Below are positions 6,141-25,041 of a stretch of DNA of 27,201 nt, piece by piece. The notes beneath the pieces are model-generated. The model worked only from the letters and a program-made list of their open reading frames with translations, searched no databases and was not told the origin of the DNA. Origin of the DNA: a virus. How positions within the stretch are numbered: position 1 is the stretch's first letter; every line of letters starts with the position of its first letter. The translations under genes were made by a program, and so were the position numbers. The stretch spans positions 1-27,201 of the IMG/VR virus record IMGVR_UViG_3300021185_003701; one strand, 5' to 3'.

Positions 6141-6632
6141 ATGAAACATTTTATTACAGCAGTAATGCTACTTTTCGTGACCGGTCCAGCATCGGCTCAA
6201 AACTTTGAATTGGAAAAACTATTTCCACAAGTGCAGTGTATGGCACTGAATGTATACTATGAAGCAAGAGGAAGCAACCTAGCAGACAAGGCAGCAGTAG
6301 CAGACGTAGTGCTGAATCGTGTAAATGATACACGTTATCCAGATACAGTTTGTGGTGTAGTCAAGCAAGGATTACAAGATGCTAACGGAAATATGCTACG
6401 TAACAAGTGTCAATTCAGTTGGTACTGTGACGGAAAACATGACAGGCCACAAGACGAAGATCGTTGGGTAGAAGCACAAAGTATTGCTTGGAATATGGTT
6501 GAAGAAAACAAATATCGCGGCATTACGGAAGGCTCTACGCATTATCACGCTACATATGTTAATCCACGTTGGGCTAAGACACTACAACTAGTCGGAAGAA
6601 TAGGTGCGCATATATTCTATAGGTGGGAATAG
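6141..6632 (+). CDS. SleB-type cell wall hydrolase (probable endolysin)
   Basis: A 163-residue protein with a signal peptide (MKHFITAVMLLFVTGPASA, cleavage near 19). The mature part follows the SleB/hydrolase_2 family: CMALNVYYEARG (33-44) with catalytic Glu41, AVADVVLNRV, YPDTVCGVVKQG, CQFSWYCDG, THYHATYVNPRW and RIGAHIFYRWE. The family cleaves peptidoglycan glycan strands. A Sec signal would export it without a classical holin, as in SAR-type or signal-peptide endolysins. The next gene encodes a large membrane coiled-coil protein with a peptidoglycan-binding-like stretch, so the two may work together. Confidence 0.9.
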   Translation: MKHFITAVMLLFVTGPASAQNFELEKLFPQVQCMALNVYYEARGSNLADKAAVADVVLNRVNDTRYPDTVCGVVKQGLQDANGNMLRNKCQFSWYCDGKHDRPQDEDRWVEAQSIAWNMVEENKYRGITEGSTHYHATYVNPRWAKTLQLVGRIGAHIFYRWE

Positions 6633-11760: not shown

Positions 11761-12063
11761 ATGAGTACTGATGTAGTATTAGATGAAAAAATCAAAATTA
11801 AAATTAAAGAGCCTAGTTTGTATCATGTGATCTTTCTTAATGATGACAAGACACCAATGGACTTTGTAATTGCATTGTTAGTAAACATTTTTCATCATAA
11901 TGAACATACAGCAATGGAAATTACTAACAAAATTCACGAAGAAGGTTCAGGTATAGTTGGTACGTATAACTACGAAATAGCAGAACAGAAGGCATTAGAA
12001 GCACAAAGTATTTGCAAGGAAAATAAATTTCCATTGCGTATCAAAATTGAAGAGGACAAATGA
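11761..12063 (+). CDS. clpS: ClpS-like N-degron adaptor
   Basis: A 100-residue protein. Residues 19-96 follow the ClpS fold: LYHVIFLNDDKTPMDFVIALL contains the NDDxTPMDFV signature that forms the N-end rule peptide pocket, then HHNEHTAMEITNKIHEEGSGIVGTYNYEIAEQKA matches the metal/His and GxGxxGxYxxEIAExK region. ClpS hands N-degron substrates to ClpAP. A phage copy may steer host proteolysis. The SD is TAGGAG. The end overlaps the heme oxygenase start as ATGA. Confidence 0.94.
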   Translation: MSTDVVLDEKIKIKIKEPSLYHVIFLNDDKTPMDFVIALLVNIFHHNEHTAMEITNKIHEEGSGIVGTYNYEIAEQKALEAQSICKENKFPLRIKIEEDK

Positions 12064-12599
12064 GCAAACTTAAAGAACTTACATGGGAAAACCATAGTAA
12101 AGCAGAAAGAACAGAACATGCCCGCAAGTTATTGAAGGGCATGAAACCAGAAGAATACCATACTTACCTTTACAATCAATGGGCATTGTATGCAGTACTA
12201 GAAGCACAAGCCGGCAGACACGGTGCATTAGAAGGCATTGAACACCTTGCTAGAGCAAATAATATCCATGCGGATATGACCGAACTAGAAGAAGAGTTTG
12301 ATATTGATCGTAAAGAACTGCAACTTTGTCAAGTTGTAGCAGACTACACAGATTATGTAATGCACATGGAACACAGGGACGAATTTCTAGCACATCTTTA
12401 TGTTAGACACTTTGGTGATATGTACGGCGGACAAATGATTCGCAAACGTAATCCTGGCTCTGGCACAATGTATGATTTTGAAAATGTAGAAGAACTAAAA
12501 ACTACAGTGAGATCGATGTTACACGACGACATGGCCGAAGAAGCAAATATTTGTTTTCAATTTGCTATGCAATTATTTGAGGAGTTGGAGAGTGAGTGA
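12060..12599 (+). CDS. Heme oxygenase, phage type
   Basis: A 179-residue, all-helical protein. His12 in LTWENHSKAER sits where the proximal heme ligand lies in bacterial heme oxygenases, and RHFGDMYGGQMI (117-127) matches the distal-helix motif (GDxxGGQ). The family opens heme to biliverdin IX-alpha, CO and iron using ferredoxin. A bilin reductase lies two genes downstream, so biliverdin probably feeds it, as in marine phage ho/pebS and ho/pcyX pairs. It is about 40 residues shorter than bacterial HO at the C-terminus. Overlapping starts tie it to ClpS upstream and to the next gene. Confidence 0.9.
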   Translation: MSKLKELTWENHSKAERTEHARKLLKGMKPEEYHTYLYNQWALYAVLEAQAGRHGALEGIEHLARANNIHADMTELEEEFDIDRKELQLCQVVADYTDYVMHMEHRDEFLAHLYVRHFGDMYGGQMIRKRNPGSGTMYDFENVEELKTTVRSMLHDDMAEEANICFQFAMQLFEELESE

Positions 12600-13777
12600 A
12601 AAGGTTATTTGCATTTTTTAATATTCCTGTTGATGATGCTAACAATGCCCAGAACACAGTCGAACACATGAAGGAATTTTTTGAAACCTTCAAAGAATAT
12701 CAAATAACAGTTATAACATCGTCGCTTTGGGAATTGTACCCATCCGGTCTATTACAGCAACACGTTCAGTATATTCATAGATACTGTACGCAGGAAAACT
12801 ATTTGCATTTTCATTTTTGCAACTTAGCACAATTACAAGATACTAAATTTCATCACCCATACGTAATACCATATGCATTCTTCAAGCATAAAATTTTACA
12901 CAGTGTTGACCATCAAGATCAAAAATTCTCCACCAAGTGGAATAGAGATAAATTTAGAGGCTTGTTTCTATCAGGTAAATCAGACAAGTTAAATAGGATC
13001 ATGCCATTAATACAATTTAAAGAACTGGAAATATTAAATACAAACGACATGGAATGGAGTTTGCACTATGTCAATAGTCAAGTTGATGCTATAACCGATG
13101 TAGTACATAAGGCTAATAGAGACGCCCAGGAACCCATTCGAAGTAAAAAGTTTGTAGCGAAGTTTTTAAAAAGACATGCTCGGAACCCAGATCAAATATC
13201 TCACGTTAAGGCCGGAGGCGCTTTCCATCACGACGGAGTTCCGTTTGATCACACGCTGTATGAAAATACATCTTTTAGTTTCATATCAGAATCAAATAGT
13301 TGCCCTGAAACTGGTAGCAATTGGATCACTGAAAAAACATGGAGAGCAATACTAAATCATCATCCGTTTATAATGTTTGCCGAGCCGCGGATGCTAGAAT
13401 GCCTAAGTAAGCAGGGCTATAGAACGTTTGAAAAATACTTCCCAGAAAAATACGACCACATTTACAATACATTACAAAGATATGATACTATATATAGAAA
13501 CATAACCTGGCTTAAAGATAATTGGAATACATTACCGTTTGATCAGATCAATCAAGATATAGTTCACAACTACGAACTATTAGTATCATCATACAACGAA
13601 GAACAGAAACAACTACGATCACAAATTAATTATACAGCCAATGACGAAAAATTAAACTTGCTTTTGTTTATGTCAGAGGCATACGAACAACCTAAAAAAA
13701 TCGGCGTTGACCATTTAGTATATTACAATTGGGGATCGCTGCCAGAGAATAAATTTATTGAAACGGAGAGAACATGA
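12596..13777 (+). CDS. Glycosyltransferase-like phage protein, GTG start
   Basis: A 393-residue soluble protein. The most telling part is about residues 226-290: FSFISESNSCPETGSNWITE, KTWRAILNHHPFIMFAEPRM and LSKQGYRTFEKYFPE. The pattern xExxxxx(F/W)ITEKTxRAIxxxxPFI followed by LxxxGYxTF is typical of phage and bacterial proteins with a GT10/fucosyltransferase-like C-terminal Rossmann domain. The N-terminal half is aromatic-rich and unrecognised. It sits between heme oxygenase and bilin reductase with 4-nt overlaps on both sides (GTGA, ATGA), which is unexpected for the pigment pathway. The glycan acceptor is unknown. Confidence 0.72.
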   Translation: MKRLFAFFNIPVDDANNAQNTVEHMKEFFETFKEYQITVITSSLWELYPSGLLQQHVQYIHRYCTQENYLHFHFCNLAQLQDTKFHHPYVIPYAFFKHKILHSVDHQDQKFSTKWNRDKFRGLFLSGKSDKLNRIMPLIQFKELEILNTNDMEWSLHYVNSQVDAITDVVHKANRDAQEPIRSKKFVAKFLKRHARNPDQISHVKAGGAFHHDGVPFDHTLYENTSFSFISESNSCPETGSNWITEKTWRAILNHHPFIMFAEPRMLECLSKQGYRTFEKYFPEKYDHIYNTLQRYDTIYRNITWLKDNWNTLPFDQINQDIVHNYELLVSSYNEEQKQLRSQINYTANDEKLNLLLFMSEAYEQPKKIGVDHLVYYNWGSLPENKFIETERT

Positions 13778-14460
13778 GTGAAGTTTGGGAAACCTTAATT
13801 GAAATACAAGATAGACTAATTGATGCATTTGATGCTACAGGTACAGAAATACAAGAACCTGGCATGGATAGATTCAATCAACCAGGCTGGCTTAATAGAG
13901 TATGGAGCAGTGACAGCTATCGCAGAGCACACATTGATGTAGTTGATGTACGTGACAGCAAAGGCTTGTGGATGATGCATTGTTGTGTATTTCCTAGACT
14001 AGACAATAACGGTCCTGTTTTTGGCTTAGATGTTATTGCTGGTAAAAATAAAATTACAGGATTCTTTCACGACTACAGCAGAACCGTAGATGCTGATCAT
14101 CCAATGATTGAAGCATTTGGTGACGAAGTAGGTAAACTTGAATGGCGCAAAGAACGTGAACTACCTGAGTGGGCTCAAGCAATTTTCTCACCACATATGG
14201 TAGCAGCAGGTAACGTGAGCAAACGTGAAGAACTTGATCAACTACTAGAACTTAGTTTAGATAGTGTTGATGCATATCTTACTGAAATTGGTAATCACAA
14301 TCATATGGCAGATACAGATGAAGTTAAGACTGCACAAAATCGTTATGCCCATTACCAAAAACAAAATCCACATACTCCTAAAACAATGACCAGTTTAGGA
14401 CTTGACGAAGAGGACGTAAGAGTATTCGTACAAGAATGTTTATTCCCTGATATTGAATAA
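13774..14460 (+). CDS. Ferredoxin-dependent bilin reductase (PcyX/PebS-like)
   Basis: A 228-residue protein of the ferredoxin-dependent bilin reductase family. The central block CCVFPRLDNNGPVFGLDVIA (70-89) with Asp86 and the following strand ITGFFHDYSRT (94-104) match the active-site sheet. LPEWAQAIFS (130-139) and the C-terminal QNRYAHYQKQNPHTPKTMTS then LFP (225) follow the family end. The family reduces biliverdin with electrons from ferredoxin. Marine phage members (PebS, PcyX) perform a four-electron reduction to phycoerythrobilin. The FHDYS form and the non-cyanophage neighbours suggest the PcyX-like branch; the exact product needs assay. It pairs with the heme oxygenase at 12060. Confidence 0.85.
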   Translation: MSEVWETLIEIQDRLIDAFDATGTEIQEPGMDRFNQPGWLNRVWSSDSYRRAHIDVVDVRDSKGLWMMHCCVFPRLDNNGPVFGLDVIAGKNKITGFFHDYSRTVDADHPMIEAFGDEVGKLEWRKERELPEWAQAIFSPHMVAAGNVSKREELDQLLELSLDSVDAYLTEIGNHNHMADTDEVKTAQNRYAHYQKQNPHTPKTMTSLGLDEEDVRVFVQECLFPDIE

Positions 14461-15804: not shown

Positions 15805-15941
15805 TGGAACTTTTTATCCACGTAGCATTTTGTTTTTTTGTCGGAGTAGGTATTGGTGCAATCCTAATACAACTTAGCGCATTGTTCTGGATGTTCTGGG
15901 ATATGTTTTTCAACAAGCGCAAGGACCTGCTAGATAAATAA
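15804..15941 (+). CDS. Very small membrane protein, 45 residues
   Basis: ATG 15804 overlaps the previous stop by 1 nt, with AGGAGG upstream inside the preceding gene. One long hydrophobic aromatic helix spans about 3-36, followed by a positive tail NKRKDLLDK, so the C-terminus should face the cytoplasm. Together with its neighbour it forms a pair of tiny membrane proteins before csgF. No family recognised. Confidence 0.68.
   Translation: MELFIHVAFCFFVGVGIGAILIQLSALFWMFWDMFFNKRKDLLDK
15935..15940 (+). promoter_or_regulatory. Late-like TAAATA 5 nt before csgF
   Basis: TAAATA overlaps the end of the preceding gene and ends 5 nt before ATG 15946. At the T4 late spacing, transcription would begin at the A of the start codon, giving a leaderless mRNA. 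No clear SD precedes the gene. Confidence 0.45.
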
Positions 15942-15945
15942 TAGT

Positions 15946-16419
15946 ATGCGATACACATTCTTGATAATCTTTTTTATAATGACAAACTATGCACCAGCAG
16001 CAAGTGCCGATTTGGTGCATAGTTTTAAATCACCTTCGTTTAGTGGCAATGGGTATAGTGCTCATGTACTAAGTATGGAGCAATTACAGTTTAATAGACA
16101 AAAAGACATTGACGATGAAGCACAACGTGAAGCTGATCGTTTAGAGCGTGAACTAGAAAACACAGTGCTAAACAAGTTTATACGTAACTTAGAATCACGT
16201 ATCTACGCTACACTATCAAAACAAATGGTCGATAATATGTTTGCAGCATGTGGCGAAGAAGACCAGCCAGCGTGTTCGAATACTGGTACAACCGAAGTAG
16301 AAGGCTCTACTATTACATGGACCAAAGATGAAACTGATGGTAGTATTACACTTATTATTGATGGCGAAGATGGCTACACAGAAATAACTATTCCTGGTGC
16401 AGGAGACTTTAACTTTTGA
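15946..16419 (+). CDS. csgF: CsgF-like curli assembly factor
   Basis: A 157-residue protein with a signal peptide ending APAASA at 21. The start of the mature protein (LVHSFKSPSFSGNGYSAHVL) matches the CsgF N-terminus, whose FxxPxFxGN segment inserts into the CsgG barrel and forms the second constriction. The middle is helical (LERELENTVLNKFIRNLESRI), followed by a C-terminal strand domain (GSTITWTKDETDGSITLIID) as in CsgF. Cys104 and Cys110 are extra. In E. coli CsgF couples the pore to the nucleator CsgB. It is joined to csgG by a TTGA overlap, so order and coupling support the call. Confidence 0.85.
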   Translation: MRYTFLIIFFIMTNYAPAASADLVHSFKSPSFSGNGYSAHVLSMEQLQFNRQKDIDDEAQREADRLERELENTVLNKFIRNLESRIYATLSKQMVDNMFAACGEEDQPACSNTGTTEVEGSTITWTKDETDGSITLIIDGEDGYTEITIPGAGDFNF

Positions 16420-17198
16420 AACATTTATTGTTAATTACAGCATTAATGCTTGCAGGATGCAGCGCAGGAAATATTCCAGCACAGCTACAAAGCCCTGCAA
16501 AGATACAAGATAATCCAATGGTTGAAGAACTTAACGAACTAAAGCCATTAAATGGTCCTGTGATGACAATTGCTGTTTATAGTTTTACAGACAAAACTGG
16601 GCAGCGTAAGCCAGCAGAAAATGTTGCTAACCTGTCAAGTGCTGTAACACAAGGCGCTGAAGTTTGGGTAATAGATGCATTGTTACAAGCAGGCAACGGC
16701 ACATGGTTTGAAGTTGTAGAACGTGTGGGCATGGACAACATTATTCGCGAGCGTCAATTAATACGTAACACTAGAGAAAACTACGAAAAAGATAATGCTT
16801 CACCGTTAGCACCAATGAAATTTGCTGGTATAATTATCGAAGGCGGTATAGTTGGGTATGACTCAAATGTTACTACAGGAGGCACTGGCGCTAGATACTT
16901 TGGTATTGGAACAGCAGCAGAATACAGAGTCGACACAGTAACCGTAGCAATGCGTATTGTAAGTGTTAGTACAGGGCGTGTACTAGTTAGCGTTGCATCA
17001 GAAAAAACAATAGCAAGTTATCGTGCTGGAGCAGATGTATTTAAATTCTTAGACTTAGGCACAAAGGCATTAGAAATTGAAACAGGTTATAGTGTTAACG
17101 AACCTACAAACTATGCAGTGCGTGAAGCAATTGAACAAGGCGTCATTGAATTAATCTATCAAGGTGCAAATCAAGACTTGTGGCAGTTTAAACAATAG
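16416..17198 (+). CDS. csgG: CsgG-like curli secretion pore lipoprotein, TTG start
   Basis: A 260-residue outer membrane lipoprotein with lipobox LAGC (lipidated Cys15). Its body follows CsgG: MTIAVYSFTDKTGQRK, NLSSAVTQGAEVWVIDALLQAG, WFEVVERVGMDNIIRERQLIR, FAGIIIEGGIVGYDSNVTTGG, ARYFGIGTAAEYRVDTVTVAMR and IVSVSTGRVL. CsgG assembles into a nine-subunit channel that exports unfolded curlin. The TTG start overlaps the csgF stop and has AGGAGA 9 nt upstream. The 3' end overlaps the Fis-like gene on the other strand by 28 nt. Confidence 0.93.
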   Translation: MKHLLLITALMLAGCSAGNIPAQLQSPAKIQDNPMVEELNELKPLNGPVMTIAVYSFTDKTGQRKPAENVANLSSAVTQGAEVWVIDALLQAGNGTWFEVVERVGMDNIIRERQLIRNTRENYEKDNASPLAPMKFAGIIIEGGIVGYDSNVTTGGTGARYFGIGTAAEYRVDTVTVAMRIVSVSTGRVLVSVASEKTIASYRAGADVFKFLDLGTKALEIETGYSVNEPTNYAVREAIEQGVIELIYQGANQDLWQFKQ

Positions 17199-17449
17199 CG
17201 TTTCATTTTAGCTAATAGTGTTTCTCTTTTAATACCGAGTGATTTTGCAGCATAAGTTCTGTTGCCATCGTTTTCATCTAACGCTCGTTGTATCTTATCA
17301 ATCTGTAATTGATCAACTTCGTCATTTAAAGAATATTGTTTTGGCACTTCATCAGACCAAATCTCGTTAAACAAGTTCCAGAATTCTTCTTGTTCTTTGT
17401 GTTTTTGTTCTGCTTGTTTCAAAGCGTTGATTACGTATGCAGTTTTCAT
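17171..17449 (-). CDS. Fis-family helix-turn-helix regulator
   Basis: A 92-residue protein whose C-terminal half (about 50-86) is a Fis-type DNA-binding domain: IQRALDENDGNRTYAAKSLG, then IKRETLLAKMKR, as in Fis and the C-terminus of NtrC-type activators. Residues 1-45 are helical and charged and may dimerise. It lies on the minus strand between csgG and the first curlin gene and faces away from the curlin gene, so the 106-nt gap probably carries its own and the curlin promoter. AAAGG lies 10 nt before its ATG. It may control the module; that is inference from position. Confidence 0.85.
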   Translation of the reverse strand: MKTAYVINALKQAEQKHKEQEEFWNLFNEIWSDEVPKQYSLNDEVDQLQIDKIQRALDENDGNRTYAAKSLGIKRETLLAKMKRYCLNCHKS

Positions 17450-17466
17450 TATAATAGCCTTTATCT

Positions 17467-17532
17467 GTAAATATATTTACACTAAATATAAGTGTATTTA
17501 TTATTCGTTGAGGCACGAGGTAAATACATTTA
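17467..17532. promoter_or_regulatory. Palindromic TAAAT/ATTTA control region
   Basis: Between the Fis-like gene and the first curlin gene lie a perfect 14-bp palindrome GTAAATATATTTAC (17467-17480), an inverted pair TAAATA/TATTTA (17483-17500) and TAAATACATTTA (17521-17532). These may be operators for the adjacent Fis-like protein, whose relatives bind AT-centred sites bordered by G and C. They are also TAAATA late-type -10 elements on both strands. The last, 17521-17526, is placed to start RNA near 17532, directly before a hairpin. Confidence 0.5.
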
Positions 17533-17543
17533 GGGGAAACCCC
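17533..17543 (+). other. Short 5' hairpin before the first curlin gene
   Basis: GGGGAAACCCC forms a 4-bp G/C stem with an AAA loop, starting 6 nt after the TAAATA at 17521-17526 and ending just before the SD AGAGGAG. It would sit at the 5' end of the curlin mRNA, like the leader hairpins at 3984, 11220 and 20646. Confidence 0.45.
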
Positions 17544-17555
17544 AGAGGAGCAAAA

Positions 17556-18308
17556 ATGAGGGCAGCATTATATAGTTTTATACTATCGTGGGTTCTCGTA
17601 AGTGCAGCACATGCAAACGAGATATACATCACACAAATTGGCGATAGTTTAGATTTGGACATCTCACAAGATGGCAAGGATAACAAAATTGGAGACAGTA
17701 CTACAGACGCTGGCCTCTATGGCGACAACATGGTGTTTAGTATAACACAAACTGGCGATACTAATACCATTGATGCAATTATTGCAGGTGATAGCTACAC
17801 AGGTACATGGCAGTTTACTGGAGACAGTAACAATGTTGACTTATTGTGTGATAGCGCAGCAACAGCAGGTGGCGGAAATTGCGATAGTGTAACATTAAAT
17901 ATTACTACAACAGGCGACTTGAATACGTTTGACTTCAAGATTGGCGAAACCAATGACGCTGGCGATGCTACAATTAACTTCACAGTAGACGGTGACTACA
18001 ACTTAGTTGACATGGACTTAGATGGCACTGATGCTAACATTACTATTGAAATTGATAACAGTGCTTCAACAGGAAGTGGATCAACAATTACAAGTGCAAA
18101 TGATAACACATTAACTACCAGTTCACCTGGTAACATTGTTGATTTAGCAATATCAGGTAACGGCGATAGTTTAGGGCATACTGTAACATTAGACATTACA
18201 GGCGCTGGCAGTGTATACACTATTACACAAAGTGGCATCAACGACAACTTGGTAGACATGACTTCGACTGGGGATGGTAACACAGTTGATATTACACAAA
18301 CCGACTAG
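17556..18308 (+). CDS. Curlin-repeat protein (CsgA/CsgB-like) 1
   Basis: A 250-residue secreted protein. A signal peptide ends SAAHA near residue 23, and the mature protein begins NEIYITQIGD, the same opening as the second curlin gene. About ten degenerate repeats of 20-25 residues follow the curlin pattern (S/x-hydrophobic-x-I-x-Q-x-G-x-x-N-x-h-D), for example FSITQTGDTNTIDAI, WQFTGDSNNVDLL, LNITTTGDLNTFDFKIG and YTITQSGINDNLVDM. Such repeats stack as a beta-solenoid amyloid. Two cysteines (LLCDSAAT, GGNCDSV) in the middle are unusual for curlin. Start 17556 follows AGAGGAG; an upstream in-frame start at 17397 lies in the Fis-like gene and is rejected. Confidence 0.85.
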   Translation: MRAALYSFILSWVLVSAAHANEIYITQIGDSLDLDISQDGKDNKIGDSTTDAGLYGDNMVFSITQTGDTNTIDAIIAGDSYTGTWQFTGDSNNVDLLCDSAATAGGGNCDSVTLNITTTGDLNTFDFKIGETNDAGDATINFTVDGDYNLVDMDLDGTDANITIEIDNSASTGSGSTITSANDNTLTTSSPGNIVDLAISGNGDSLGHTVTLDITGAGSVYTITQSGINDNLVDMTSTGDGNTVDITQTD

Positions 18309-19416
18309 ACTTTTATACATAATATTTTTTGCGCTGGCGTATGTAGATATGGCCAAAGCATCTCCTATTGGCGAGATTGCCGAATCTAAAGGCAGCAGTA
18401 CAATCAAGCGAGACAAAGAAGCATACACAGGCGAAGTAGGTCTTGGGTTACAAATGAACGACAATGTTGTAACAGGCAAAGGTCGATTACGTTTAGATTT
18501 TATTGATGACACTAGGGTTGATGTTACAGAAAATAGTCGTATGACTATAGATGAGTTTATATACGATCCTGCTACACAAAAAGGTGCATTGTCAATGAAA
18601 GCAACACTAGGTGCAGTACGTTATGCTAGTGGACAAATTGCAAAAAACAGCAGACAAAGAGTAAACATTAGAACACCAAGTGCAACTATCAACGTGCGTG
18701 GCACAGATTTTATGATGATTATAGACGAGATTGGCGGTAGTATGGTAACACTATTGCCTAGTTGCGATGTTGCAGGACTGTGTGTTGTTGGCGAAATTGA
18801 AGTAGAATCAGACGCAGGCACAGTTATTATGAATCAAGCATTTCAAACTACAGTTGTAGCACACGCAGGAGCAGTGCCTAAAAGACCAATTACACTAAAC
18901 TTGCCAGAAGATATGCTTACCGCAATGTTAATCATAAGAAAAGTTTCTCCTTACACAGAGGAAATAGTAAGGCAATATCCAAACACAAATTTGTTAGATA
19001 TTGATTTTTTAAAGTTTGACGAACTTGATAAAGATCCGCTTGTAGAAGGAATTAAAAACATCTGGGTTACAGACTTAGATAATACAAGTTATCTAAATTC
19101 AGAGTTTATAGATGCTATGGAAAAACAACTTGCTGAAATATTAGCACAGTGGTTTGATGAGCTAGGAACTCAAAACATACAATTTTTTCAAGAAAAGTTT
19201 TTTGGACTAGATCCAGAAACAAATATATTTTACGATGAAGAATATCCTTATTTTATAGTAAGGAGAGCAGAAGGCGATCAACACTTTTTTCAATTAAGAC
19301 TAAGTCAAAGTCATAGTTATAGTGTTGACATGGTGCAGGGAGGATTTTACAAATATGGATATCAAGTGGGCGTCGGTGGCGCTAACAATATTACTATCAA
19401 TCAAAACGACTACTAG
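18274..19416 (+). CDS. FecR-domain protein, periplasmic
   Basis: A 380-residue protein. A hydrophobic signal segment (LLYIIFFALAYV) ends AKA near residue 29. Residues 30-160 form a FecR domain: GLGLQMNDNVVTGKGRLRLDF, DDTRVDVTENSRMTIDEF, GALSMKATLGAVRYASGQIA and VNIRTPSATINVRGTDF, the last being the family hallmark. The rest is unassigned. The start overlaps the curlin gene; ATG 18274 has no spaced SD, and TTG 18286 is an alternative that keeps the signal peptide. FecR-domain proteins often accompany CHASE2 adenylate cyclases, and one lies at 22996. Here it is sandwiched between two curlin genes, overlapping both, so it is co-translated with them. Confidence 0.85.
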   Translation: MVTQLILHKPTRLLYIIFFALAYVDMAKASPIGEIAESKGSSTIKRDKEAYTGEVGLGLQMNDNVVTGKGRLRLDFIDDTRVDVTENSRMTIDEFIYDPATQKGALSMKATLGAVRYASGQIAKNSRQRVNIRTPSATINVRGTDFMMIIDEIGGSMVTLLPSCDVAGLCVVGEIEVESDAGTVIMNQAFQTTVVAHAGAVPKRPITLNLPEDMLTAMLIIRKVSPYTEEIVRQYPNTNLLDIDFLKFDELDKDPLVEGIKNIWVTDLDNTSYLNSEFIDAMEKQLAEILAQWFDELGTQNIQFFQEKFFGLDPETNIFYDEEYPYFIVRRAEGDQHFFQLRLSQSHSYSVDMVQGGFYKYGYQVGVGGANNITINQNDY

Positions 19417-20191
19417 TAATGCAAATGAAATTTATGTATACCAAGTTGGTGACAATAATGCATTAACCTTGACTCAAGATGGGGATGTAAATTATATCAG
19501 TGGAATACCTGGTGAGACTAAAGGTATTGAAGGCGATGGCAATACGATTGATATGGTACAAACAGGTATGTATCATGGCGTCCAGGGAATGTTAGACGGT
19601 GATAACAATAATGTAGATTTCTATCAAGGCGGCGGCGGTGATAGTGGAATGATCACTTCTCGAGTTACTGGTGATAACAACGACTTGGTAATATGGCAAG
19701 GTAAACATGCTGATGGTACAATTGACTTAGCAGAGGGCGGTGATCACACTGCTACAGTTACAATTACTGGAAATTATAACGATATTAAAGCAGCACAAAC
19801 TGATCAACAAACTTCAGGCTATGGTAGGCATGAATTAACCGCAGAAATTACTGGTAATAGCAACGATGTTGAAATGACGCAAAGAGGAAATCAAAAGCAT
19901 CTATTAGACATTGATATTTCAGGTACTGGAAATGATGTTACAACTTATCAGAAAGGCAATGGCGGACAAAAAACTGCTGACATTGAGTTGTCAGGAAATT
20001 ACAATGTAATTGATTTAAACCAACGTGGAATGAATTCTGCATCAGCAAACATTAGTGTAGAAAGCATATATGGTCCTGCCTATAACGTAACAGTTAGTCA
20101 ACAAACAGACACTTCTGCTAAATCATTTAGCCTAAGTGGTGTATGTACAAACCCAAACGGGTGTGTTGTAAGTGTTCAGCAGCACAACTAA
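19355..20191 (+). CDS. Curlin-repeat protein (CsgA/CsgB-like) 2
   Basis: A 278-residue secreted protein with a signal peptide (KWASVALTILLSIKTTTSNA) and mature start NEIYVYQVGDNNALTLTQDG. Repeats follow the curlin rhythm: DGNTIDMVQTG, DNNNVDFYQGG, GDNNDLVIWQG, GNYNDIKAAQTD, GNSNDVEMTQRG, GTGNDVTTYQKG, GNYNVIDLNQRG. The GN-x-N/V-D-x-x-Q form is clearer than in the first curlin. It ends VSVQQHN with a CxxxxxxC pair (VCTNPNGCV). ATG 19355 lies inside the fecR 3' end (62-nt overlap) behind AGGGAGGA. Two non-identical subunits would fit a major/nucleator pair as CsgA/CsgB; which is which cannot be told. Confidence 0.88.
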   Translation: MDIKWASVALTILLSIKTTTSNANEIYVYQVGDNNALTLTQDGDVNYISGIPGETKGIEGDGNTIDMVQTGMYHGVQGMLDGDNNNVDFYQGGGGDSGMITSRVTGDNNDLVIWQGKHADGTIDLAEGGDHTATVTITGNYNDIKAAQTDQQTSGYGRHELTAEITGNSNDVEMTQRGNQKHLLDIDISGTGNDVTTYQKGNGGQKTADIELSGNYNVIDLNQRGMNSASANISVESIYGPAYNVTVSQQTDTSAKSFSLSGVCTNPNGCVVSVQQHN

Positions 20192-20325
20192 TGGAAACTG
20201 TATTGACATTTTTCATAGCAGGATTTTTTACAGCATTTGGTTGGTGGGCTGCTGAAAAGTTAACAACCAAAATAGACACTCATTACGAGGAAAAGCAAGA
20301 TGATATTAGAAGCACTAACGATTAG
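20191..20325 (+). CDS. Small single-TM protein, 44 residues
   Basis: ATG 20191 overlaps the curlin stop as TAATG. One TM helix (about 3-20, TVLTFFIAGFFTAFGWWAA) is followed by a charged tail (EKLTTKIDTHYEEKQDDIRS). This layout of a short METxLxFFIAxFF start plus charged tail is familiar from small proteins of marine phages. The stop overlaps the next gene by 26 nt. Function unknown; a membrane accessory of the module is possible. Confidence 0.68.
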   Translation: METVLTFFIAGFFTAFGWWAAEKLTTKIDTHYEEKQDDIRSTND

Positions 20326-20641
20326 TTTAGGACTCAGTAGCCATATTGGATTTGATGAAAAATATAACGCTTTTCATCCACACCTAAGATACACACATGA
20401 AAAATTTATTACAGGCGCCTATTATAATAGTGTAGAAAATTTAAGCGTATATGCAGGACATCGACAAGAAATAAACAATTTTGGTTTTGAAGCTGCATTT
20501 GTAACAGGCTACAACAATGGCTCGCTTACTCCTTATATTAGAGGCACATATGACATAGGTAAAATGAGAATGTTTATAGCACCAGGCATAGAAAGTGAAG
20601 ATATCGGCGTAGTTTTAGGAGTAGAGATTAGGCTTAAATAG
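20300..20641 (+). CDS. Small beta-strand-rich protein of unknown function
   Basis: A 113-residue protein with alternating strands suggestive of a small beta-barrel or outer-membrane-like fold: FHPHLRYTHEKFITGAYYNS, SVYAGHRQEINNFGFEAAFV, LTPYIRGTYDIGKMRMFIAP, VVLGVEIRLK. The layout x-HPxLRYxxxxFxxGxYxNS...SxYxGxR is one I associate with uncharacterised phage proteins. A classical signal peptide is not obvious (MILEALTISLGLSSHIG is short), so export is uncertain. GAGGA precedes the ATG. Confidence 0.65.
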   Translation: MILEALTISLGLSSHIGFDEKYNAFHPHLRYTHEKFITGAYYNSVENLSVYAGHRQEINNFGFEAAFVTGYNNGSLTPYIRGTYDIGKMRMFIAPGIESEDIGVVLGVEIRLK

Positions 20642-20678
20642 AGTGTGGACCGCGGCGTGAGGGCGCAACCGGCATCCA
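20635..20678 (+). promoter_or_regulatory. Late-like promoter plus structured 5' leader
   Basis: TAAATA (20635-20640) overlaps the preceding stop. Five nucleotides later a GC-rich stem begins at 20646: TGGA/TCCA, CCG/CGG and GCG/CGC pairs enclose a TGAGGG loop, ending at 20678. The loop repeats the TGAGGG of the true SD region at 20684-20689. The sequence is markedly richer in G/C than its surroundings. It could stabilise the mRNA or act as a regulatory leader; no known riboswitch class is recognised. Confidence 0.5.
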
Positions 20679-20695
20679 AACAATGAGGGTAAAAT

Positions 20696-22696
20696 ATGAA
20701 AAGAATAGCGATTGCCAGTATAATGGCAGCACTACTTAGTACTACTGCATTGGCAGATACGAGTAGCATGAGTACAACAGCAACAGGCATGGGTATACTT
20801 GAAAACAGTTATGTAAAAGCCGGAGTCAATGGTGACGCAGGTACTTTTGGATCAGGAGGAAGCACTCGTCCAGGACTACAGTTTGACAGCACAGGTTCAG
20901 GCACATTTCCAGCAGATAGCGCACAAGGCGACTACCTAACACCAGGTTCACCGTTTGATGGCTTTGCTATCAAGATAGATGGTACTAACAGCAAAAATAA
21001 TAACCAAGGCGGAAGTACTTGGGTAGATGCAGATGGTTTAACAAACGGTGATAATTCACTTACTTGGACTGGTACAAATTCAGCACACAGTGGTTGGGAA
21101 ATAGAAAACACATATACTTTAGGTGCTACATCAGAACACATTGAGATCGGCACACAGATTACAGCAGGCAGTGATGCTACCGCACTAAGTTTTGGACGCT
21201 TTATTGATCCAGATGCTATGCCAGAAACTGGCGACACAAGTGCTACAGACAACGTGCTAGGTTATGGCGTTATTCCAGATAGTAATGTAGCATTTGCAGA
21301 AGCAACAGTATCACGCTATGCACTAGGACTTTACTCCACAAACTCTAATGTTGATGCAGGTATTACAGGCTGGTCAACAGAGGCAGACGGTTATACTGAA
21401 AACGCTGTTGACGGTGACGGATCAAACACCAACAGAGGCGACAACACTATTGGACTAAGTTGGAACTGGGCCGATGTAAGCACAGGCGATATACTTACAG
21501 CAAGTTACGCATACATATTTGGACCAAGTGCGTTTGATGCTGCCGATGCTGCTATTACAGCAGGCGCAGGTGGCGGTGGTGACATCAGTAGTTGGGGTAC
21601 ATTAGAAGATGTTGGTAGTGCTACAGACGCAGCAGATGGCGCAGCAGAACCTACAGTAGTTAGTACAAGTACAGAAACTATTACCAGCAGTAGTGAAGCA
21701 GTTAATACAGCGTTGCCAGTACTTACAGCAGCACAAACAACACACGATAGCAGTGTAGCAGAAGGTGTACAAACTATTGCTAGAGAAACAACTACAACAG
21801 TAACAACACCAATGACAATCACTACAACTAGTTTTGTTAGAACTACAGCAACAATGAGTGATGGTAGCGAAGTTGTTACAGACGCTACACCAACAGTCAC
21901 TACAGCAAGTAGAGCAGATGATGTTGTAACCGTTACAGATCCAGGTGCATTTACAGGACGTATGGATCAAATGGATCAAATGTTAACATTGCGTCCACAT
22001 AGCAGCGTAGGTATAGGTGATGGATTTACAGCAGGACGTATTAACCATGATATGAGTAACGGATATAGTGCTGAGTCTCGAGTGTTTGGATTAGGACATA
22101 ATGCTGTGACTGATAATAGTATGACTATTGGTTTAGGTATAAATCGTATTACAACAGATATAACTGGTGAAGGTAGTACAGGTAGCATGTCTACAACAGT
22201 ATTAAGTTTAAGTGCAGGTAAACATATTGATGACAGCGATATTACAGTTCGAGGACAGGTAAATGCTGCAAACACAGACTTAGAGTACAATAGAACTATT
22301 GGAGACTTTAGTGCAATGGGATCTACTACTTCAAGCGATAGATGGGCAACAGTTACAGTAGAAAAATCAACTGGTATAGTTCGTCCGTTTGCTGGATATA
22401 CTATTGGTACAAAAAGTCACGATGCATTTGCTGAGACTGGCGATGTTCAAGCAGCATTACTAGATGCAGGCAACAGCGAAACATATCGTTATCCTACAAT
22501 TGGTATCAATATTGACAACGATATAGTAACAGCAAATATTGCTAGAGATTTTGACGATGCAGGAACAACTCGTATAGGTTTAGGTGTAAATCATGCTATT
22601 AATGAAAACATAGGTATTGCAGCCGGTGTTAACAGAATTACAGCAGGCGATAATACAAGTACAACTGTAAACGCAGGGTTTACTTGGAAGTTCTAA
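20696..22696 (+). CDS. Autotransporter-like outer membrane protein
   Basis: A 666-residue protein. A signal peptide ends TTALA at 20. Residues 21-300 form a beta-rich passenger-like region (DGFAIKIDGTNSKNNNQGG, ENTYTLGATSEHIEIGTQI). Residues about 325-425 are a Ser/Thr/Val/Ala-rich linker, and residues about 430-666 look like a 10-12-strand barrel (SVGIGDGFTAGRINHDMSNG, TIGLGINRITTDITGEGS) ending GFTWKF, the BAM signature. The layout matches type V secretion, but the passenger has no recognised enzyme or adhesin motif. It follows the curlin cluster behind its own late-like promoter, so it may be made in quantity late. Receptor masking or adhesion are possible roles. Confidence 0.75.
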   Translation: MKRIAIASIMAALLSTTALADTSSMSTTATGMGILENSYVKAGVNGDAGTFGSGGSTRPGLQFDSTGSGTFPADSAQGDYLTPGSPFDGFAIKIDGTNSKNNNQGGSTWVDADGLTNGDNSLTWTGTNSAHSGWEIENTYTLGATSEHIEIGTQITAGSDATALSFGRFIDPDAMPETGDTSATDNVLGYGVIPDSNVAFAEATVSRYALGLYSTNSNVDAGITGWSTEADGYTENAVDGDGSNTNRGDNTIGLSWNWADVSTGDILTASYAYIFGPSAFDAADAAITAGAGGGGDISSWGTLEDVGSATDAADGAAEPTVVSTSTETITSSSEAVNTALPVLTAAQTTHDSSVAEGVQTIARETTTTVTTPMTITTTSFVRTTATMSDGSEVVTDATPTVTTASRADDVVTVTDPGAFTGRMDQMDQMLTLRPHSSVGIGDGFTAGRINHDMSNGYSAESRVFGLGHNAVTDNSMTIGLGINRITTDITGEGSTGSMSTTVLSLSAGKHIDDSDITVRGQVNAANTDLEYNRTIGDFSAMGSTTSSDRWATVTVEKSTGIVRPFAGYTIGTKSHDAFAETGDVQAALLDAGNSETYRYPTIGINIDNDIVTANIARDFDDAGTTRIGLGVNHAINENIGIAAGVNRITAGDNTSTTVNAGFTWKF

Positions 22697-22698
22697 AA

Positions 22699-22704
22699 TA
22701 AATA
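22699..22704 (+). promoter_or_regulatory. Late-like TAAATA 4 nt before a start codon
   Basis: TAAATA follows the stop of the autotransporter-like gene and ends 4 nt before ATG 22709. There is no SD, so a nearly leaderless transcript is suggested. Confidence 0.4.
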
Positions 22705-22708
22705 CTGT

Positions 22709-22999
22709 ATGAAATGGATAAGCGAATGGTTGTTCAAAGAACATATAGAAAATATGGTGGAGGAAAAGTTTCAGGAGAAATTACTTGAAGCCTACCTTCA
22801 CCAGCGCAAACAAGAACACAAAGCAAGAATTGCCCGAGTCAGAGAAACGCTTAATAATACCTCATCGGGGATTTCGCAAGAAGCACCCTCCAAACTACAA
22901 CCCAGTAGTAGAGTACGAACGGGGAGTGCCGAATCCAAACCACAAGAGTCGCCCTCTGCGGCCGCAATGAAAGCAAAGTTGTTAGGAATTAAAAAATGA
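22709..22999 (+). CDS. Small helical protein before the cyclase
   Basis: A 96-residue soluble protein. Residues 1-50 are a long charged helix (HIENMVEEKFQEKLLEAYLH, QRKQEHKARIARVRETL), likely a coiled coil; residues 51-85 are Ser/Pro-rich and disordered; the end is AAAMKAKLLGIKK. The last codons overlap the cyclase start as ATGA, so the two are translationally coupled. No family recognised; a partner of the cyclase is possible. Confidence 0.65.
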   Translation: MKWISEWLFKEHIENMVEEKFQEKLLEAYLHQRKQEHKARIARVRETLNNTSSGISQEAPSKLQPSSRVRTGSAESKPQESPSAAAMKAKLLGIKK

Positions 23000-25041
23000 G
23001 AAAAGTACTGTTCAGCCCGCTTTGGAGTGTTTTATTATTAGGTGTGCTGAGTTATGTATACTATCTTAATCCAGCATTTATAGAAAGCATACGACTACGC
23101 TACTTTGATACACTTATTGTAAATCAACAACCTGTTGAAAACAACATTTACACAGTGAACATCGATGAACCAAGTTTAGAGGCTTACGGACAATGGCCGT
23201 GGCCGAGAGGTGATTATGGTAGCCTTATAGAGGACTTATATGCCAGAGGCGCTGGACTAGTGGTTTTCAATGTATTGATGTCGGAAGAAGACAGGTCAGG
23301 TGAAGATGCTACATTAGGCTTGACAATGCAGCAATTACCTGTTATAGTTACTATGTTAGGTGCGGAGGACAACAAAAATGAACCAGTCAATCCAGGCGCT
23401 ACTATTGTTAACAGCGACTTTCTTTATACTATTCCTAGTGTTCCAGGAATCATCGCAAATGTACCAGATATTGAATTCAACGCAGTAGGTAGTGGAATAA
23501 CAAACAGTTGGCCGGAAGTAGACGGTGTTACTAGACGTATACCTCTAGTAGTTGAATCTAGTGGTACATTATATCCAAATGTTACTATGGAAGTGCTACG
23601 TGTACTAGCAGGCGATCCTAGCTTCCAAATTAAACTATCACCTATGGGTGTAGATAAACTACGCATACCAGCATATGGTATAATACAAACAAGCCCCACA
23701 GGCGAAGTATGGATAGACTGGAGTCAGCGCAGCAAAAGCGTGAGCGCAGTTGACTTACCAGATGACTTTGCTGGCGGTATAGTGTTTGTAGGACCAACAG
23801 CAGCAGGGCTTACACAGCCACTAGCAACAGCAGCAGGCAGTGTATTTCCACACGAAGTACAAGCAGCAATGCTAGGAACAGTGTTTAATGAATCAAATAT
23901 TAGCAGACATCCAGACGCAGAGCAGTGGGCAGAACTAGCAGCTCTAGTTGCAGCCGGCGTACTGTTAATCATACTCGCCCGTTGGACATTTGTAGGCATA
24001 GCCTTCTTTGTGTTGTCCGTGGGCGGGTTTATAGGAGGGAGCATATATGTTTTCAATACACAAAATATTCTTATCGATGGTGCTGTTATCAGTGCTTTCA
24101 TCTTGCTCGTTGGGCTCAAACGATACATTGTCAAGTTCGTCGACGAGTTCTTACAAAAGCAAGCCATCAAAAAGCAATTCGAAGGTTATGCATCACCAAC
24201 AGTGGTTAGACTACTACAGGAGTCGCCAGAGCTTATTAAACTGGGCACTAAGCGTAATGTAAGTATTGTATTCTCAGACTTGCGTGGATTTACACCACTA
24301 GGAGAAAGTTTTGGAGATGACGTACAAGGACTCACACGTATTATGAATGGCTACATGGATGCTATTACAGAACCTGTGTTAGAGTCAGACGGAATGATAA
24401 TCAAGTACATAGGCGATGCTAGTATGCACATACACAATGCGCCTATAGATGATCCTAACCATCCTCGTACAGCAGTACAGTGTGGCTTAGACATGCTTAA
24501 AGCAGTGGAGAAGTTTAATGAAGAAGTTATTATACCTGATGGTCGTCCTGCTGTTGGTATGGGCGCTGGCATCAACACAGGGCTGGGGTACCTTGGTGAG
24601 ATGGGAAGTACTAAACGTCATTCATATGATGTCCTTGGAGACGCTGTCAGCACCGCAGCAAGAGTAGAAAGCAAATGTAAAGAGTATGGGTGTTTGTTAC
24701 TTGTAGGAGAATCTACATACGAAGCAACTAGAACAGATTTCTTCTACCTCAAAGTAGATGACTTGCAAGTCAAAGGCAAAAGTGTAGGACTTAAAATTTA
24801 CACAGTGTTGGATAAGCCATATCCTGCATGGCGTAGTGCGCAGAAGAAACATGAACAAATGCACGAAGACTATCGTGCGCAGCGTTTTGATGACGCTATA
24901 GACAAGTGTAAGATGTTGTATACACACTTTGATCACAAGATGGAAAAGTATTACGATATGTGGATTGAACGTTGTGAATATATGAAAACACAGGATTTGC
25001 CTTCAGATTGGAATGGCATCTTTGTAGCCACAAGTAAATAA
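22996..25041 (+). CDS. CHASE2-domain class III adenylate cyclase
   Basis: A 681-residue membrane enzyme. An N-terminal TM (8-25) is followed by a periplasmic CHASE2 sensor domain (about 30-300; NIDEPSLEAYGQWPWPRGDY is typical), three TM segments (312-330, 333-353, 359-376) and a catalytic domain (about 415-600). Metal Asp428 (FSDLRGF) and Asp474 (YIGDAS) are present, with Lys470 and Asp545 for adenine choice and Arg556 (AARVES) for catalysis. The usual transition-state Asn in the VN motif is Ser552 (DAVSTAAR), which may lower activity. It makes cAMP from ATP in response to an envelope signal. FecR and CHASE2 proteins commonly pair, and both are present in this phage module. Confidence 0.93.
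   Translation: MRKVLFSPLWSVLLLGVLSYVYYLNPAFIESIRLRYFDTLIVNQQPVENNIYTVNIDEPSLEAYGQWPWPRGDYGSLIEDLYARGAGLVVFNVLMSEEDRSGEDATLGLTMQQLPVIVTMLGAEDNKNEPVNPGATIVNSDFLYTIPSVPGIIANVPDIEFNAVGSGITNSWPEVDGVTRRIPLVVESSGTLYPNVTMEVLRVLAGDPSFQIKLSPMGVDKLRIPAYGIIQTSPTGEVWIDWSQRSKSVSAVDLPDDFAGGIVFVGPTAAGLTQPLATAAGSVFPHEVQAAMLGTVFNESNISRHPDAEQWAELAALVAAGVLLIILARWTFVGIAFFVLSVGGFIGGSIYVFNTQNILIDGAVISAFILLVGLKRYIVKFVDEFLQKQAIKKQFEGYASPTVVRLLQESPELIKLGTKRNVSIVFSDLRGFTPLGESFGDDVQGLTRIMNGYMDAITEPVLESDGMIIKYIGDASMHIHNAPIDDPNHPRTAVQCGLDMLKAVEKFNEEVIIPDGRPAVGMGAGINTGLGYLGEMGSTKRHSYDVLGDAVSTAARVESKCKEYGCLLLVGESTYEATRTDFFYLKVDDLQVKGKSVGLKIYTVLDKPYPAWRSAQKKHEQMHEDYRAQRFDDAIDKCKMLYTHFDHKMEKYYDMWIERCEYMKTQDLPSDWNGIFVATSK
25035..25040 (+). 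promoter_or_regulatory. Late-like TAAATA 4 nt before a start codon
   Basis: TAAATA overlaps the cyclase stop and ends 4 nt before ATG 25045. The gene has no SD. It fits the leaderless pattern seen at 15946 and 22709, but may also be chance in AT-rich stop-codon context. Confidence 0.35.

Follow-up and report, generated by a model that had tools for sequence, protein, structure and literature searches.

IMG/VR virus record IMGVR_UViG_3300021185_003701, analyzed here over its whole length of 27,201 bases (the window), carries a csg gene module at 15946 to 25041 that we read as a late phage operon exporting curli-type amyloid fibers onto the infected cell, a reading to which we assign a probability of roughly 0.55. 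The model is built on computed gene content, linkage, conservation, motifs and predicted folds, and it proposes export, fibers, a role for FecR, operator binding, a cAMP output and a benefit. CsgG and CsgF would form an outer-membrane pore with a surface collar, and the curlin-type proteins CurA and CurB would be the exported subunits. The FecR-domain protein would act as the base or tether of the fiber and not as an iron regulator, its FecR domain staying with the cell and its curlin-like C-terminal segment joining the CurA and CurB subunits; it may also report fiber export to a CHASE2 cyclase and thereby to cAMP. Transcription would start from T4-type late promoters, with a divergent Fis-type regulator and its palindromic operator as a probable further control in 25 of 111 dereplicated loci, the window included. 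Most probably the fibers would form a coat on the cell or its debris, by which other phages and cells are blocked or trapped. Fiber secretion during infection, judged plausible in an earlier note on this DNA, serves well as a working model, since the exporter, the subunits and the part of CsgF that binds CsgG are linked and conserved, and from these we infer export.

Pfam searches uphold the names and coordinates given in that note for csgF, csgG, two curlin-type genes and fecR at 15946-20191. On the plus strand, csgF (15946-16419; CsgF family, 1.3e-12, above cut-off) is followed by csgG, which starts at TTG and encodes the outer-membrane curli pore lipoprotein (16416-17198; CsgG, 9.1e-53), by the gene of the first curlin-type secreted subunit, CurA (17556-18308), by fecR, encoding an exported FecR-domain protein (18274-19416; FecR, 2.8e-8), and by the gene of the second secreted subunit, CurB (19355-20191; Curlin_rpt, 1.5e-9). 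The note had overlooked a CHASE2 adenylate/guanylate cyclase on the same strand (22996-25041; CHASE2, 5.5e-35; Guanylate_cyc, 1e-17), a minus-strand Fis-type regulator (17171-17449; HTH_8, 1.5e-9) that lies between csgG and CurA and diverges from the curlin genes, and extra open reading frames (ORFs) between CurB and the cyclase. Its proviso that the contig might prove to be a bacterial chromosome has a negative answer, the contig being an IMG/VR virus record.

The window is another case of a module (csgF-csgG-curlin-fecR-curlin-cyclase) already published for pelagiphages in PMC9599517. That paper identifies CsgA/B, FecR, a histidine kinase and an adenylate cyclase in pelagi-podo- and myophages, notes the lack of CsgE, places the histidine kinase before csgF and describes transcription of phage curli genes in marine metatranscriptomes. 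Amyloid subunits in marine phages, offered in the earlier note as a new point, are therefore already in print. The note also mentioned csgF/csgG-like genes in marine phages, with lysis suggested; PMC7029224 describes csgF, csgG and three neighbors in pelagimyophages and suggests ‘sibling capture’. HTVC008M (KC465899) and Melnitz (MZ577097) share the gene order of the window (csgF, csgG, curlin, fecR, curlin, cyclase), with CsgF, CsgG and FecR 42-52% identical, whereas the window is set apart from the pelagiphage module by the Fis-type gene and its operator, which lie between csgG and CurA, and by ~2.8 kb of additional ORFs ahead of the cyclase. The curlin-like tail of FecR and the Fis-type switch with its operator appear to be new details; neither was found in the main text of PMC9599517 or among the matches listed in searches of open-licence PMC papers.

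The components of the module travel together. Relatives were taken as the best 80 of 579 for CsgG, the best 80 of 489 for FecR and, in a further set, the best 80 of 216, so the counts describe close relatives. In CsgG-anchored loci with room, CsgF comes before (76/77) and a curlin (58/58), FecR (49/49) and the cyclase (28/28) come after; FecR-anchored loci with room have CsgG (75/75), CsgF (70/70) and a curlin (78/78) before, and a curlin (55/59) and the cyclase (42/44) after. Some CsgG- and FecR-anchored loci share a contig, and these linkage counts, as well as those for Fis placement, were not dereplicated; the FecR strict-motif, palindrome, module-family ending and cyclase counts were. Of the records in the phage collection, 12 contain a relative of CsgG and 6 a relative of FecR. 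Ratios of nonsynonymous to synonymous substitution rates (dN/dS) are 0.07-0.15 for csgF, csgG, CurA, fecR and the FecR tail against two relatives (0.066 and 0.125 for CurA against L006 and L010) and 0.40 for CurB against L010 only, with several dS values near saturation. The FecR alignment (A4) holds 82 rows of 85 representatives (fragments of L067 and L165 left out) and the CurA alignment (A5) 81 of 82 rows (L165 left out), while nothing was left out of alignments A6 (90) and A7 (89); in all four, L004 was replaced by the window, whose FecR is identical.

The predicted structure of FecR (pLDDT 84.2, pTM 0.55) comprises a leader helix, the FecR domain at 33-195, a poorly predicted middle, a helix and six confident strands at 318-377. 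The C-terminal segment spans residues ~316 to 380 (bases 19219-19416); there, Q355 and Q377 are the same in 82/82 aligned phage FecRs, and I373 (81/82), I375 (77/82) and N371 (73/82) are also conserved. The two glutamines lie 22 residues apart, a spacing that fits the curlin repeat length of 23 ± 5 residues (PMC10192328). A strict motif in the last 16 residues occurs in 71/86 phage FecRs, a set that includes HTVC008M, Melnitz and those proteins of loci L163-L167 that passed the filters, as compared to 4/80 bacterial FecRs and an average of 0.92/86 in shuffles. A looser ending, h-x-h-x-Q, was found in FecR (83/85), CurA (79/82) and CurB (60/65); elsewhere its counts were 2/90 for CsgF, 0/89 for CsgG, 4/59 for the cyclase and 63/1109 for other ORFs. 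Since the strict form is rare in the curlins (CurA 3/82, CurB 0/65), we treat it as a hallmark of FecR, and the loose form as the one common to FecR and the curlins. Curlin monomers have been modeled to join via their terminal repeats (PMC10192328), and a fiber could therefore be seeded or held by an edge of curlin type at the C-terminus. The FecR gene that the earlier note saw between the two curlin genes is borne out by the Pfam map, and it is not an intruder in the module, given its place after CsgG in every locus with room and its curlin-like end.

The chance that FecR is solely a regulator or sensor, of fiber export or of iron (compare PMC9599517), whose C-terminal segment binds curlins in the periplasm and forms no part of the fiber, is in our estimate somewhat short of even. 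Its domain best matches the periplasmic domains of anti-sigma regulators (PupR, Z 14.1), and in 27 of 75 bacterial loci a FecR relative is found no more than 5 kb from a CHASE2-type cyclase, no curli genes having been detected at any of the 75. Pfam finds the FecR domain in 82/82 phage members and no anti-sigma domain in any of the 82, and no sigma-factor family was found among the 30 window proteins scanned, both of which speak against regulation as its sole role. A FecIRA-type iron regulator was rejected on the same searches, which found neither the N-terminal cytoplasmic anti-sigma domain of that type nor a nearby sigma factor. The unrelated entry RsdA_SigD_bd matched 2/82 FecRs weakly (best 0.39). 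Residues 29-123 also superpose on the cell surface anchoring domain 5ix9 (Z 10.4, rmsd 2.3, 73/76 residues, 22% identity), which we take to be part of a giant ice-binding adhesin exported by a different route; the fold is the same, and fold likeness alone shows no function. A literature search on this anchoring domain found nothing.

Of the two curlin-repeat proteins announced earlier, CurB is confirmed above the Pfam cut-off with 9 curlin-type motifs (shuffles: mean 0.59, maximum 4, 0/2000 reaching 9), and CurA falls slightly below it (ORF 17547-18308; Curlin_rpt 5.3e-4, 20.3 bits with a cut-off of 20.7) and is weak by motif. The predicted structure of CurA (pLDDT 82.3, pTM 0.81) resembles a beta-solenoid, the fold whose absence the earlier note would have counted against its reading. 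Its best structural match is 8bwk (Z 10.5, rmsd 3.6 over 190 residues), one of 14 entries shown at Z of at least 8, most of which are presumably beta-helix or solenoid proteins (alginate and pectate lyases, tailspikes, an autotransporter). Mature CurA and CurB both apparently start with NEIY, as judged by eye; signal peptides and the CsgG lipobox were also assigned by eye. Such solenoid proteins might instead leave via CsgG as soluble or surface adhesins, decoys or virion parts that form no amyloid, which we consider unlikely. The degenerate repeats of CurA, with 2 motifs, and the superposition of its model on non-amyloid solenoids, phage tailspikes included, are in line with that alternative, whereas the 9 motifs of CurB and the retention of a curli-specific pore together with CsgF speak against it.

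The CsgG of the window aligns with the E. coli CsgG structure over residues 4-258 (8.8e-52). Its lipobox, pointed out in the earlier note, is present as LAGC, and Cys15 is invariant in 89/89 aligned phage CsgGs. The earlier note's condition that CsgG be able to form the nonameric barrel was addressed at the level of sequence, by this full-length alignment to a solved pore. The N-terminus of CsgF is conserved at P30, F32, G36 and H40 (each 90/90), F27 (89/90) and L42 (88/90), and the phage segment aligns in register with E. coli FRNPNFGGN. In E. coli CsgF, residues F24, F26, F31, L41 and L42 make contact with CsgG; changes at the three phenylalanines abolish CsgG binding and changes at the two leucines reduce it (work cited in PMC12311626). 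Conservation of this segment suggests that the CsgG-CsgF complex is kept, and argues against the parting of the two proteins considered in PMC9004378. By gene content, a CsgG lipoprotein pore, a CsgF with a CsgG-binding N-terminal segment and subunits bearing curlin repeats place the module with curli, or type VIII, secretion.

Pinholins and holins are small helical proteins of the inner membrane, and CsgG, a 260-residue lipobox protein homologous to an outer-membrane pore, was rejected as one. A pinholin- or secretin-like role as a lysis or gating pore, with the other genes timing lysis or riding along, was proposed in print for Melnitz (PMC9004378), and it has two further points in its favor, as late-type boxes would suit lysis timing equally and the pore might be open, no CsgE gate having been found. 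That proposal was built on the absence of csgA and csgB, which PMC9004378 held Melnitz to lack, yet two Melnitz genes carry curlin-repeat annotations; moreover, curlins and FecR stay with CsgG in all loci with room, the CsgG-binding segment of CsgF is kept, and purifying selection acts on both CurA and the tail of FecR. The published idea, which the earlier note had named as the competing one, is therefore weakened and improbable as the main function, and we retain it as a rival.

Several observations weigh against fiber export. A phmmer search with E. coli CsgE gave no match at E ≤ 10 (19,590 ORFs, 243 sequences, the window included), in agreement with the earlier note, and CsgE binding is called essential for substrate selection in PMC10133297. 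We do not take CsgE as defining for curli, because alphaproteobacterial curli modules are described in PMC9599517 as being without CsgC, CsgD and CsgE; CsgE is also not essential for curli according to PMC7029224. No clumping was observed with Melnitz, as described in PMC9004378. The 2 motifs of CurA are a count reached by 64/2000 shuffles, its fold has no significant Foldseek match, and no N22-like leader was seen by eye in the curlins. On the FecR tail, Curlin_rpt matched 2/82 members weakly (best E 0.039), and hhalign of the tail against curlin gave 20.6% over 11 columns; homology with curlins was not shown by either approach, and for this reason we call the tail ‘curlin-like’ only. Finally, 39/59 phage cyclases have Ser at a catalytic-motif position that we take to be usually Asn, which leaves the cAMP output uncertain and suggests that cyclase activity may be altered.

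The timing and control of the operon are suggested by its promoter-like elements. In the window, an ATAAATA box lies at 15934-15940 on the plus strand, 12 nt 5′ of the csgF start codon; boxes of this type presumably have the look of T4-type late promoters. Across loci, ATAAATA is found at −35 to −5 of csgF in 41/90 and of the cyclase in 16/59, as compared to 2/65 for CurB, 1/82 for CurA, 0/89 for csgG and 0/85 for fecR, the control for this count being the other genes of the module and no shuffles. An exact TATAAATA occurs within 250 nt of csgF in 29/90 loci versus 2.75 by shuffling; with one mismatch allowed, the figures are 54/90 versus 41, a weak excess, and it is the exact form that is informative. 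A sigma-70 scan was uninformative (32 sites versus 28.1 in shuffles). The late-type boxes would place expression near the end of infection.

Fis-type genes gave 44 matches, every one on the minus strand. A position could be assigned to 42, of which 25 precede csgF, upstream of csgG, and 17 stand between csgG and CurA, and HTH_8 matched 26/26 distinct proteins. The window has a candidate operator, the perfect 16-bp palindrome TGTAAATATATTTACA at 17466-17481. Across the family such a palindrome goes with the Fis-type gene: GTGTAAA-N4-TTTACAC, or a sequence close to it, is present in 22/25 dereplicated loci with such a gene and 0/86 without, where 0.7 would be expected in all 111. Three loci went unscored: L004, which is the window itself, where the operator is present but was missed because the curlin ORF had been started at a TTG further upstream; L098, whose palindrome is imperfect; and L103, where no palindrome was seen. 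A separate search found a palindrome in 22/26 Fis-type gaps. NATAAATA stands within 45 nt 3′ of the palindrome in 16/22 cases; the distance is 4-5 nt in 12, 9 nt in 1 and 36-37 nt in 3, the last three all before CurA; at the 36-37 nt spot the window reads GGTAAATA, with no exact late box there. The palindrome pattern alone occurs in at least 120 viral stretches, and among those listed 14 are by csg genes, 4 have a Fis-type gene only and 102 have neither. An adjacent late box accompanies 16 of the 120 listed stretches, 15 of these 16 with a Fis-type gene; several of the 120 are contigs already in the locus set. In four places (L271 near 10224, L319 near 3413, L371 near 4683 and L372 near 906), a Fis-type gene, palindrome and late box occur without csg genes nearby, and the genes after the switch encode other proteins, of about 180-330 and 660-700 residues, whose starts look like leaders.

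Two bacterial systems seem to have been combined in the phage module: five chromosomal curli loci showed no FecR or cyclase nearby, and the bacterial FecR-CHASE2 loci showed no curli genes. Among 385 genomes of Xanthobacter’s class (Alphaproteobacteria by name), CsgF was above cut-off in 5, with one more below. The five chromosomal loci (L254-L258) resemble the window in having csgF next to csgG with curlin-like ORFs nearby; unlike the window, they gave no FecR or cyclase match with the phage models in the 18-19 kb around each. PMC9599517 likens the viral organization to alphaproteobacterial modules, and in this small sample of five loci the likeness holds for csgF, csgG and the curlins only. 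FecR-CHASE2 sensor pairs (PMC5192318, and the bacterial loci above) match the window in encoding a periplasmic FecR-domain protein with a CHASE2 receptor, and differ in that no curli genes were detected and the strict C-terminal motif is confined to the 4 of 80 bacterial FecRs. Compared with E. coli curli (csgBAC, csgDEFG), the window has homologous CsgG and CsgF and curlin-type repeats, and differs in its single direction of transcription, its added FecR and CHASE2 cyclase, and the lack of a detected CsgE. At nine Pelagibacteraceae loci (L184, L187-L189, L194, L197, L222, L227 and L236), an ORF of ~191 residues with a FecR domain lies ~1.3 kb 3′ of a cyclase-type ORF, and no curli genes were detected at these nine.

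A fuller version of the model is tentative, and we would call it possible more readily than probable. Curli secretion and a FecR-CHASE2 cAMP sensor would be joined by the curlin-like tail of FecR, which would anchor and seed the fiber and sense its growth or pull, under a dedicated Fis-type switch whose operator stands directly before a T4-type late promoter; in other phages the same switch would also run other late secreted cassettes. The FecR tail and the operator turn the question of fiber, pore or relic into specific tests, and they give reason to rethink FecR as an iron regulator.

Curli in E. coli biofilms trap T7 and protect cells, and the trapped phages stay infectious (PMC8346279). 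By analogy, a curli coat could keep rival phages off the infected cell, which we find slightly the more likely benefit, or the fibers could tie cells and debris to one another and thereby bring trapped progeny into contact with new hosts. If the export model is correct, amyloid secretion by widespread marine phages would alter the effect of infection on stickiness, superinfection and particle formation in the ocean.

Four plus-strand ORFs of uncertain membership in the module lie between CurB and the cyclase (20143-22999, comprising 20143-20325, 20300-20641, 20696-22696 and 22709-22999). A CurB-to-cyclase gap of more than 1500 nt was found in 16/95 loci, repeats of the same contig included. 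The second of these ORFs is a PagP-like piece matching PHROG 3600. The third encodes 666 residues with a leader and a final Phe, and gave no Pfam or PHROG family and no match among phage records; this secreted protein is perhaps an outer-membrane barrel.

Elsewhere in the window, a heme oxygenase and a ferredoxin-dependent bilin reductase are encoded at 12060-12599 and 13774-14460. The closest phage-record match of the bilin reductase is that of Pelagibacter phage Mosig (46.5%), which makes a SAR11-type host likely. Megablast of bases 1-25000 of the window found no match among phage records. The major capsid family Gp23 is present in 1/8 related virus records, so gene content and promoter boxes are the grounds for regarding the contig as T4-like. 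A Cell Wall Hydrolase family protein at 6141-6632 is a lysin candidate.

Some sequences outside the phage collection proper, or oddly labeled within it, also touch on the module. Loci L163-L167 of the genome collection are contigs of 3.1 to 11.5 kb holding all or part of it, and we infer that they are phage DNA misbinned in metagenome-assembled genomes (MAGs). CsgF turns up four times in the Rhodobacteraceae MAG G003 (L163, L244-L247, L259), each time on a separate contig, and the phage-type module is present at L163 and L259 at least; phage contigs were probably binned with this MAG. OR851715.1 (1499 bases, named Salmonella phage S.Kent 1-2-1), which may be mislabeled or host DNA, encodes a CsgG 40.5% identical to that of the window.

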